From: Pseudorhodobacter ferrugineus DSM 5888
GTDB lineage: Bacteria > Pseudomonadota > Alphaproteobacteria > Rhodobacterales > Rhodobacteraceae
Length of the DNA stretch: 64,000 nucleotides
Direction: 5' to 3'
Assembly (NCBI RefSeq): GCF_000420745.1
Contig: NZ_ATVN01000002.1
Coordinates: 124,001 to 188,000 of the forward strand
The notes below the pieces were generated by a model that made no database searches, was not told the origin of the DNA, and was given only the letters and a program-made list of their open reading frames with translations. Positions 2,150 to 4,067 of the stretch are shown here, one piece after another. Both the position numbers and the translations under genes were made by a program. Numbering within the stretch: position 1 is the stretch's first letter; each line of letters begins with the position of its first letter.

Positions 2150-2465
2150 GGGGGCATCCACACACGCCCCGGGTTTACCGGAGACGTTCAAGCTGATTAA
2201 GGATGAGGGCTATGGAAAAGAGTAAGACATCAAACCGCTATTCACCTGAAATGCGGGCGCGTGCCGTTCGCATGGTGCTGGAGCATCAAGGCTCCTAAGA
2301 AACGCGATCTGCGGCGGCCGCTGCGATTGGCCCCGCTGCCCTGCAGCGTATGTTTACATGCGCGGAGGGGACGATTGGCTGCATCCTTGAGGTATTAAGG
2401 GTCTGGGTTCGGCAGGCCGAAAAGGACACCTACGTCTCAACATGGCAGGGCTTCGTTTACGTTGC

Positions 2466-2510
2466 CTCTCGCCATTGGGCTCGAACCAATGGCGCCTTCA
2501 ATGGCTCGAT
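2466..2510 (-). repeat. Short palindromic unit, copy A, inserted in the IS3 remnant
   Basis: Read on the minus strand the unit has three related arms: GCCATTG (2505-2499), GCCATTGG (2493-2486) and CCAATGGC (2478-2471), so the third arm can pair with either of the others. It interrupts the orfB frame between FVYVA and IDTFANRIV. It is about 85% identical to copy B at 2816-2858, which lies on the opposite strand. Where the two differ inside arms 1 and 3, the changes are complementary, which suggests a maintained hairpin. Confidence 0.65.
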
Positions 2511-2618
2511 GATCGACACCTTCGCCAACCGCATTGTCGCCTGCGTGATTTGCACGCAAATTCCTTCCGTGTAACAGCATGGAGGGCGTCGCGGTCTGCA
2601 AAGACCGACTTCGTTCTC

Positions 2619-2650
2619 CCCTCTCATCGCTGCAAGCAGCGATGAGAGGG
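2619..2650. repeat. Perfect 15-bp inverted repeat inserted in the IS3 remnant
   Basis: CCCTCTCATCGCTGC at 2619-2633 and its exact reverse complement at 2636-2650 are separated by two bases. The hairpin interrupts the transposase frame between KTDFVL and DALEQAL, which are adjacent in intact family members as I recall them. It has no run of T and no gene ends here, so it is not an ordinary terminator. Confidence 0.8.
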
Positions 2651-2815
2651 CAATGGATGCACTTGAACAGGCACTTTACGCCCGCCGTCCGTCTCATCAG
2701 GGCGGGTTGATCCACCACAGCGACAGGGGAAGCCAATGCGTCTCGATCCGATATGCCGAGCGTTTGGGAAAAGTGGGCATTGACCCATCCGTTGGCAGCG
2801 TCGGCGACGCCTATG

Positions 2816-2858
2816 ATCGAGCCAGTGGACGCCATTGGTTCAAGACCACTGGCGAGGG
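2816..2858 (+). repeat. Short palindromic unit, copy B, inserted in the IS3 remnant
   Basis: Arms are GCCAGTGG (2821-2828), GCCATTGG (2831-2838) and CCACTGGC (2846-2853). Arms 1 and 3 pair perfectly over 8 bp. The unit splits the conserved YDNALAETINGL segment of the IS3 transposase. It is homologous to copy A at 2466-2510 but inverted; the shared core includes ATCGAGCCA, CGCCATTGGTTC and TGGCGAG. Confidence 0.65.
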
Positions 2859-2979
2859 CTTTGGCCGAGACCATCAACGGCCTTTACAAAACCGAGGTCA
2901 TCCGGCGGCGCAGTTCATGGAAAACAATGGAGCAGGTCGCCTTGTAATCCCTCAAATGGCCTTACGGCCCCACTCGGCA

Positions 2980-2998
2980 GATTTGGCTAGGCCAAATC
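2980..2998. repeat. 8-bp inverted repeat within a further insertion in the IS3 remnant
   Basis: GATTTGGC at 2980-2987 and GCCAAATC at 2991-2998 flank TAG. They lie in about 95 bp of foreign sequence (roughly 2946-3040) that separates the orfB segment ending MEQVAL from VDWFNNRR, segments that are close together in intact family members. Confidence 0.6.
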
Positions 2999-3182
2999 CA
3001 CCTGCCGGGCAACGGATACAAGCATCGCCCACCGGTTAACAGGTCGACTGGTTCAACAACCGCCGCCTGCTTGAGCCTGTCGGAAACATCCCACCGGCCG
3101 AAGCAGAGGAGGCCTTCTTTGCAAACCTGAACACACTCGATATGGTCGCGTAACACGAACTAATTGGTCTCCGGTAAACGCG

Positions 3183-3683
3183 GCGCAGTTCATTCCTCTG
3201 CTCAAAGCCCCGTTCCGCAAGCGCCTGAAGCAGGTTGAGCGCGATCTCGTGCAAGTCGCTGCGGCCGTTCTGAGCGTAATTGCACAGGATGAAGGCCTGT
3301 CAGAAAGCACGAAAATCCTCAGCAGCATTCGTGGGGTTGCTACAGTGACTGCCTGCGCGATGCTGACAGAGATGCCCGAACTCGGGACGATTTCAGGCAA
3401 GCAGGCGGCATCTCTGGCTGGCTGGGTTCCTATGTCTCGCCAATCTGGAACTTGGCAGGGACGCGAGCACATTCGCGGTGGTCGCGCAGTAATGCGACGA
3501 TCCTTATATTTTCCGGCAGTGGTCGCAACACGCTTCAACCCCGATATGAAGGTGAAATATGATCAGTTCGTTGCATCAGGAACGTGCAAGAAACTGGCGA
3601 TAACTGCAATCATGCGCAAGCTTCTCGTTATGGCAAATTCACTCCTGCGAGATCGCAGAAAATGGGTCGATATGCGTCCCTGA
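3183..3683 (+). pseudogene. Truncated IS110-family transposase (C-terminal part)
   Basis: The frame reads AQFIPLLKAPFRKRLKQVERDL, then ILSSIRGVATVTACAMLTEMPELG, then GKQAASLAGWVPMSRQSGTWQGREHIRGGRAVMRRSLY, and ends at 3683. This is the C-terminal transposase domain of the IS110 family, with the glycine-rich helix-hairpin-helix segment and the catalytic-serine region. The N-terminal RuvC-like domain is missing because the frame begins directly at the right end of the IS3 element. It differs in sequence from the transposase at 870-1883, so it came from a separate element. Confidence 0.8.
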
Positions 3684-4067
3684 TCGATACGGATACTCAT
3701 GGTTTGCCTGCAAACCACTGCCGGGCAGCGGTGCTCTGGACTGTTGCCGATCCAGATCGAGCACGCCTACGAGATGGGCACAGCGGAATTGCTCTTGAAC
3801 CAGCATCATGTTGGCAGCCAACGCGCAGGCCACGGACCGAAGCATGCACTTGGGGTGATCTCAGAAGAGGGCAGCAGAGATAGCAGAACGGCACAGAAAA
3901 AACTGTGATCAAATGCACAATCAGGCGGTCGGCTGCCTATGCCAAAAAGCGCTTGACTGGGACGACCCCGTTACCGAAGTCCTGACGCTAGTAACAATCG
4001 ATAGCAAAGACTGCAGCTGGCGACACGCAGCCAAGATCGGGCGCAGGCCCGGCCAGAACCGGACGCG
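3684..4067. other. Probable right-end non-coding remnant of the second IS110-type element, then featureless spacer
   Basis: No convincing gene lies here. Short frames on both strands overlap each other and lack binding sites. By analogy with other IS110 elements the first 270 bp or so (to about 3970) may be the downstream non-coding end that carries a guide RNA, but I found no second inverted repeat to define it. The remainder is spacer before the convergent rsuA-like gene. Confidence 0.35.

Follow-up and report, generated by a model that had tools for sequence, protein, structure and literature searches.

Small palindromic repeats are common in bacterial genomes, and their means of movement is mostly obscure. 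Bacterial group II introns insert without target duplication and are often found in other mobile DNAs; they measure kilobases, carry a reverse transcriptase gene and splice themselves. Among shorter repeats, RUP is reported to lie within, and to inactivate, the transposase genes of over six IS families, and the same text asks whether RUP limits transposases (PMC2229807). REPs of the GTAG and CGTC types appear in the relevant excerpt of a second paper as palindromes of 20-40 bp with many copies, some of them intragenic (PMC3733652). Here we report that at least two families of hairpin elements of about 40 bases are present in many relatives of Pseudorhodobacter ferrugineus, mostly inside genes of other mobile DNAs. 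No description of these elements was found in open-access full text, outside which most subscription journals lie, and they apparently represent an undescribed, very small element that may be a parasite of transposons.

The window, that is, the whole 64,000-nucleotide stretch of P. ferrugineus DSM 5888 DNA that was analysed, contains an IS3-family remnant in which the original prediction placed two inverted palindromic units, at 2466-2510 and 2816-2858. Both are present there, and we refer to them as copies A and B of family F1. A second family, F3, which is commoner than F1 and occupies the same remnant, consists of 5′-CCCTCTC, a stem of variable sequence and TGCCGGGYAACG-3′. A covariance model, R1, was made from 14 aligned F3 copies of the own genome (G000), F3 having been traced from short patterns in neighbouring sequence; a second, R2, was built from four F1 copies (A, B, one at C26 of the own genome and one from G007, a genome matching Pseudorhodobacter turbinis). 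The features of the region are as follows.

2165..3192, plus strand: IS3-family remnant holding the insertions; its orfB is without several hundred bases
about 2334..2369, minus strand: F3 element; R1 26.7 bits, E 0.0021; site empty in the relative L008, with no gap
2467..2509, minus strand: F1 copy A, 43 nt in place of 4 nt of target; site empty in the relative L007; R2 61.4 bits (in the training set)
2540..2577, plus strand: F4, borders approximate; a 43-bp repeat, 93% identical, lies at G000:C3:22326-22368
2619..2655, plus strand: F2, which looks like a fully paired F3 variant; clean 37-bp insertion at TTCTC^GATGC; site empty in L007 and L008
2817..2857, plus strand: F1 copy B, 41 nt in place of 4 nt of target; site empty in L007; R2 61.6 bits (in the training set)
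2960..3041, plus strand: older, decayed F3 copy with outer parts 2960-2968 and 3015-3041, by eye split by the element at 2969..3014
2969..3014, plus strand: F3 element lying inside the older copy, inserted at C^GAT; R1 30.4 bits, E 0.00037
3696..3730, plus strand: F3 element just past an IS110 remnant; R1 23.7 bits, E 0.0086

By blastn, the remnant aligned to L008, an IS3 element with open orfA and orfB, over 2165-2329, 2373-2428, 2654-2816, 2858-2959 and 3042-3192, and it also aligned to L007, an intact IS3 relative that is 94% identical over the query; both came from an IS3 fragment search that yielded 80 loci. An rve domain at 2653-3036 of the remnant scored 28.9 bits, under the Pfam cut-off of 32.6. 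L007 is without copies A and B, the palindrome at 2619-2655 and the insert of ~82 nt at 2960-3041, and L008 is without copy B, the same palindrome and the same insert; F4 is by eye absent from both. The outer parts of the decayed copy resemble, by eye, an F3 copy at L109 (1672-1709). Further along, a Transposase_20 domain (Pfam, 3249-3680) lies ahead of the F3 element at 3696..3730, and another R1 match in the window, at 3715, is on the opposite strand to that element (E 0.42). Eight elements, two of them recognized by eye only, thus lie inside ~1.4 kb of the window (F1 A, F1 B, F2, F4, the decayed copy and the R1 matches at about 2333, 2969 and 3696). F2, in which the internal loop TCTC/TGCC of F3 is changed to full pairing, has four copies in its own genome and a DNA fold z of -7.05; F4, likely a relative of F3 by eye, is perhaps also a variant of it. 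Elsewhere in the window, positions 798-1883 hold a transposase frame that is IS110-like by eye and has an early stop at ~1263; no element was noticed in it.

Copies A and B had been put forward as a small hairpin-forming element inserted in IS3 and occurring elsewhere. Alignment with intact IS3 relatives supports this: since L007 has neither segment, both are inserts, and the unit recurs in other genomes, with R2 matching 21 of 61 at E<=0.01, all of them members of the family (0 of 24 from other families). The finding of the two units is sound, and it was understated, the commoner family in the same remnant and the intergenic relatives of F1 having gone unmentioned. In the own genome, positions 2400-2900 gave six matches, including the query itself, the matches between A and B and a self-palindrome. 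A third F1 copy lies at G000:C26:1576-1622 within another IS3 orfB, where it is in frame and encodes NCFD-RAIGATGSSPMARA-AAVQSFFK, and a fourth was found in G007, in what is by eye an IS21-type transposase gene. Copy A adds a net 39 nt and keeps the frame; copy B adds a net 37 nt and shifts it. We read F1 borders and footprints by eye, against an empty-site relative for 9 of the 15 copies tried (none was in hand for the other 6). In six of these nine (A, B, the G008 and G030 copies, and two G015 copies at one site) the element stands in place of 4 nt of target, and the copies of G029, G003 and G001 gave no clear footprint. These six replacements represent five distinct sites and are not six independent events, because B and the G030 copy share a place in related transposases.

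A compensatory change had also been taken to suggest that a stem between arms 1 and 3 is kept. This compensation is real but thinner than claimed: among 15 F1 copies assigned by eye to transposon loci, in all of which the core is conserved, nine have U-A at this pair, copy B and L330 have G-C, and the other four have lost the pairing. In 10 intergenic relatives, on the other hand, arm 1 pairs with arm 3 in a stem of 11 pairs, five of which are changed on both sides. Covariation between the two arms is therefore clear in the intergenic relatives and weak in the transposon-locus copies; across F1, of which 24 sequences were aligned in all, the conserved core GCGCCAYTGGTTCRAGC is held by a covarying stem. 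Single-strand DNA folds of A, B and the C26 copy all favour pairing of arm 2 with arm 3, which counts against the 1-3 stem; A and B fold better than shuffled sequences (3/200 and 1/200 shuffles reached the native fold), and the C26 copy folds no better (72/200). The F1 loop, GGTTCRAGNCC, is one that we take to resemble a tRNA T arm. A tRNA origin of F1 was considered and dropped, short of exclusion; the own genome contains the exact stretch CCATTGGTTCRAG at three places, namely A, B and one in C12.

By eye, F1 copies of G008, G015, G030, G003, G029, G001 and other genomes lie in transposon genes, and those of G018, G026, G005, G014, G019 and G006, one G008 locus and C12 of the own genome are intergenic, near gene ends. 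Given this intergenic branch, not every element here is a transposon parasite. Its members read CGTCGCCATTGG on the opposite strand, and CGTC adjoins their stem, a feature absent from the IS copies. We also observed composite units of the form AAATATCCTCGGGGG-hairpin-GGGGCAGACAGCCCCC at L093 (G000:C12 ~41540) and L096 (G000:C2 ~109500), the slot being filled by an F1-like or another hairpin; a search for this composite pattern in the window found none.

The F3 stem covaries in the 14 aligned copies. Pairing is kept in 93.5% of cells, 9 of 12 pairs have changes on both sides, and 27 cells are changed on both sides against 9.1 in shuffles, a figure that column shifts of 1-3 come nowhere near; the result is descriptive, since the 14 copies themselves chose the structure. 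Insert lengths range from 31 to 46 (partial matches included) and are mostly 37-41. At E<=1, R1 matched the own genome at least 37 times (the 14 training copies among them), and at E<=0.1 it matched G007 at least 118 times; 150 candidates were scored in each, and the counts may be lower bounds. At E<=0.01, R1 matched 22 of 61 genomes, comprising 9/9 of the genus, 13/28 of the rest of the family and 0/24 from other families. In a survey of 390 genomes drawn from the order, with few candidates scored per genome, 139 matched at E<=1e-4, and these fell in 65 of 139 genera. Among 74 of the 80 IS3 loci, mostly from outside Rhodobacteraceae and with second loci from one genome left out, R1 matched strongly in L068 (Labrenzia) and L037 (uncultured Rhizobiaceae) and weakly in L012 (Bosea). 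A plasmid search for named occupied copies gave one, on P. turbinis NZ_CP039965.1, 99.4% identical to the query, the other matches being mainly relatives of the host IS. At the Rfam 15 gathering score there was no match in window positions 2200-3900 or in six loci; sub-threshold matches were to mir-320 (20.5 of 55.5 bits) and to two sRNAs (23.2 and 20.3 of 137). Two further sub-threshold matches were seen on the minus strand of other loci, one to a fluoride riboswitch at L185 2017-2084 (28.5 of 34 bits) and one to an ALIL frameshift pseudoknot at L188 2161-2220 (36.9 of 50 bits), which adjoins an F3 element at 2221-2258.

F3 inserts cleanly as a rule. By comparing joined flanks with all loci, we found a relative without the element for 63 of 123 elements, representing 55 distinct sites. 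The junction is clean and free of duplication at 47 of these; at the other eight there is a gap, of 1 nt in the relative (four sites) or of 1 nt (three) or 2 nt (one) in the query, and one gapped row, L236_1163, looks by eye like an occupied copy. The bases that follow the insert are usually GAT (G 0.76, A 0.66 and T 0.70 at 108 distinct sites). Elements lie in both directions relative to the gene (42 with it, 50 against it and 9 discordant), and insert lengths at the 108 sites leave remainders of 0, 1 and 2 on division by three in 27, 35 and 46 cases, so that the frame is not kept. The footprints of the two families differ, F3 being clean as a rule and F1 replacing 4 nt in most copies compared, so that the two need not share a single mechanism.

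Most F3 elements lie within transposase genes, and these genes come from many IS families. In the own genome, all 37 R1 matches fell within 17 loci (16 and the window), every one of which is a transposase remnant by eye; the same was seen by eye for 40 of the 40 G007 loci examined, a set that takes in part of the 118 matches. Pfam assigned a transposase-type family to 40 of 50 ORFs (e.g., DDE_Tnp_1, rve, IS66, IS110, IS91 Y2, IstB, Mutator, Tn3 and DUF772; IS family names were inferred from these labels). Eight had no family at E<=0.001 (L183, L185, L187:1963-2388, L188, L198, L230, L208 and L173:1379-1603) and, apart from the last, are transposases by eye only; of the remaining two, L205 had only helix-turn-helix families and the other was a RelE. 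The surroundings of 123 elements (36 from G000 and 87 from G007), out to 350 nt, were translated in six frames, and the fragments were matched to labelled transposases with the same locus excluded; this Pfam-labelled comparison was used instead of an earlier blastp clustering of flanks, which had chained into one group of 97. Transposase homology was present on a flank of 101 of the 123 elements (both flanks in 56, one in 45, none in 22) and at 1 of 118 control points taken from this window outside the IS region, a contrast rather than a genome-wide rate, since the reference set comes from the same kinds of loci and the controls from one window. In other genomes, 26 of 27 loci (one per genome, top-scoring rather than random) were by eye in transposon genes, with Pfam support for 10, and L297 was intergenic. 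Among 24 loci from ten other genera, 13 were transposon loci by eye, five were ambiguous (L177, L269, L273, L283 and L288) and six lay outside transposons, namely L173, L181 and the weak G019 matches L182, L276, L282 and L287. The clearest of the non-transposon sites is L173 (~1500-1545, in G011), where F3 lies within a RelE-like toxin-antitoxin gene.

Several observations indicate that element-bearing IS copies have multiplied. In G007, four IS110 copies (99-100% identity) have an element at one site that is empty in seven others (89-91%). An IS110 of the own genome (~82%) has an element at the same place, so that either the site was hit twice or one branch has lost the element. Three places of G007:C2 hold three elements each, with centres 347 and 227 apart at every place, and on C1 there are two places with two of the three, which shows that an IS carrying several elements was copied.

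We consider it probable that these are non-autonomous hairpin elements of ~36-46 nt that insert exactly, reside mostly in transposase genes and travel as passengers of IS elements. F3 goes in exactly, in most cases neither duplicating nor removing target bases, and usually before GAT. The combination of conserved ends with a stem that changes freely yet remains paired suggests that a folded single strand, of DNA or RNA, is what a mobilising enzyme recognises. Elements in transposase genes probably persist and multiply as passengers of the transposing host IS, element-free IS copies presumably helping in trans. The data themselves show the insertion, the clean borders, the covariation, the residence in transposases and the multiplication of element-bearing IS copies, from which the single-strand intermediate, the help in trans and the enzyme are inferred. 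A bolder reading, that minimal structured elements are aimed at unrelated transposase genes (DDE, DEDD and HUH) via a folded single strand and act as a brake on transposons across Rhodobacteraceae, seems to us rather doubtful.

Transposase residence might also arise passively. If insertion occurred anywhere, with no targeting, and elements were purged from genes, they would be seen mainly in dispensable, self-copying transposases, and we regard the chances of this account as about even. The multiplication of IS copies with elements fits it, as do the occurrence of elements in both directions and all frames and the existence of non-transposon sites. It may be less easily reconciled with the own genome, where 37 of 37 matches are in transposase remnants and none is intergenic (as judged by eye), and with the crowding of eight elements, two of them seen by eye only, into ~1.4 kb of the window.

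It is improbable, in our view, that we are dealing with a system of the REP/RAYT type, in which REP-like palindromes are moved by a Y1 tyrosine transposase and F1 is a CGTC-like REP. Size, hairpin and absence of duplication would fit, as would CGTCGCCATTGG on the other strand of the intergenic F1 relatives, and CGTC REPs are reported to occur mostly in alphaproteobacteria and to have no dedicated transposase (PMC3733652). However, Y1_Tnp, the candidate mobiliser, was found in only 3 of 32 genomes (G015, G023 and, with a score barely above the cut-off, the own genome) and was absent from G007 with its at least 118 copies; four loci holding Y1_Tnp had no R1 match, and the F1 loop is 7 nt long versus 4-5 reported for CGTC REPs.

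The original prediction likened the units to the palindromes that invade Rickettsia genes. The likeness holds insofar as palindromes lie within genes, and in-frame read-through occurs in copy A, the C26 copy, the G030 copy and the IS21-type gene of G007. It fails for F3 in frame (length divisible by three at 27/108 sites) and in direction (42 with the gene and 50 of 92 against it), and copy B shifts the frame as well. A protein-coding palindrome of the Rickettsia kind, inserted in frame into a transposase that still works, is thus largely refuted for F3 and, as a general explanation, very unlikely. Removal of the element at the RNA level, or skipping by the ribosome, so that the transposase works, would suit the multiplication of element-bearing IS lineages, and we find it scarcely credible given that elements lie in both directions even in one gene (three plus and two minus in L185), that element-free relatives are present and could help in trans, and that the IS110 copy of the own genome has stops elsewhere too.

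The borders are clean, empty sites are numerous, the stem covaries and residence is strongly biased, all within one bacterial family, which makes the mechanism testable. If insertion is aimed, the elements would be a transposon-specific control system; if it is not, they would be a clear case of parasites persisting within parasites. The frameshifts of some broken transposases in Rhodobacteraceae are due to these elements, a point of relevance to annotation.

Group II introns share with F3 a duplication-free insertion, often in mobile DNA, and differ from it in their kilobase length, reverse transcriptase and self-splicing. The target duplication of MITEs and RUP is absent here (no gap at 47 of 55 F3 sites; 4 nt replaced in 6 of 9 F1 copies). 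As far as the portion of the source on RUP goes, RUP is like F3 in being a small non-autonomous repeat in transposases of several IS families, but it is 107 bp long, is repeated intergenically, targets TA and has ends in common with IS630-Spn1, whereas the elements reported here are of 36-46 nt and F3 prefers GAT (PMC2229807). REPs, as presented in the excerpt on the GTAG and CGTC types, are likewise short, many-copy palindromes, and the CGTC type is found mostly in alphaproteobacteria and has no dedicated transposase; they are extragenic by name, their intragenic cases lie in varied genes, their ends differ from those described here, and the F1 loop is longer (PMC3733652). REP hairpins have a GTAG or CGTC tag at one end; F3 begins with CCCTCTC and finishes with CAACG, and CGTC stands beside the stem in the intergenic F1 relatives but not in the IS copies. 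The resident RAYT/Y1 of GTAG REPs is not matched (Y1_Tnp in 3/32 genomes and 0 in G007). Finally, RPEs resemble these elements as palindromes inserted in alphaproteobacterial genes, but in the passages that treat them they are 105-146 bp long, in frame and in many cases in conserved genes (PMC2229807), whereas F3 (31-46 nt) and F1 (43 nt in copy A and 41 nt in copy B) are far shorter, and F3 does not keep the frame and sits mostly in transposases.
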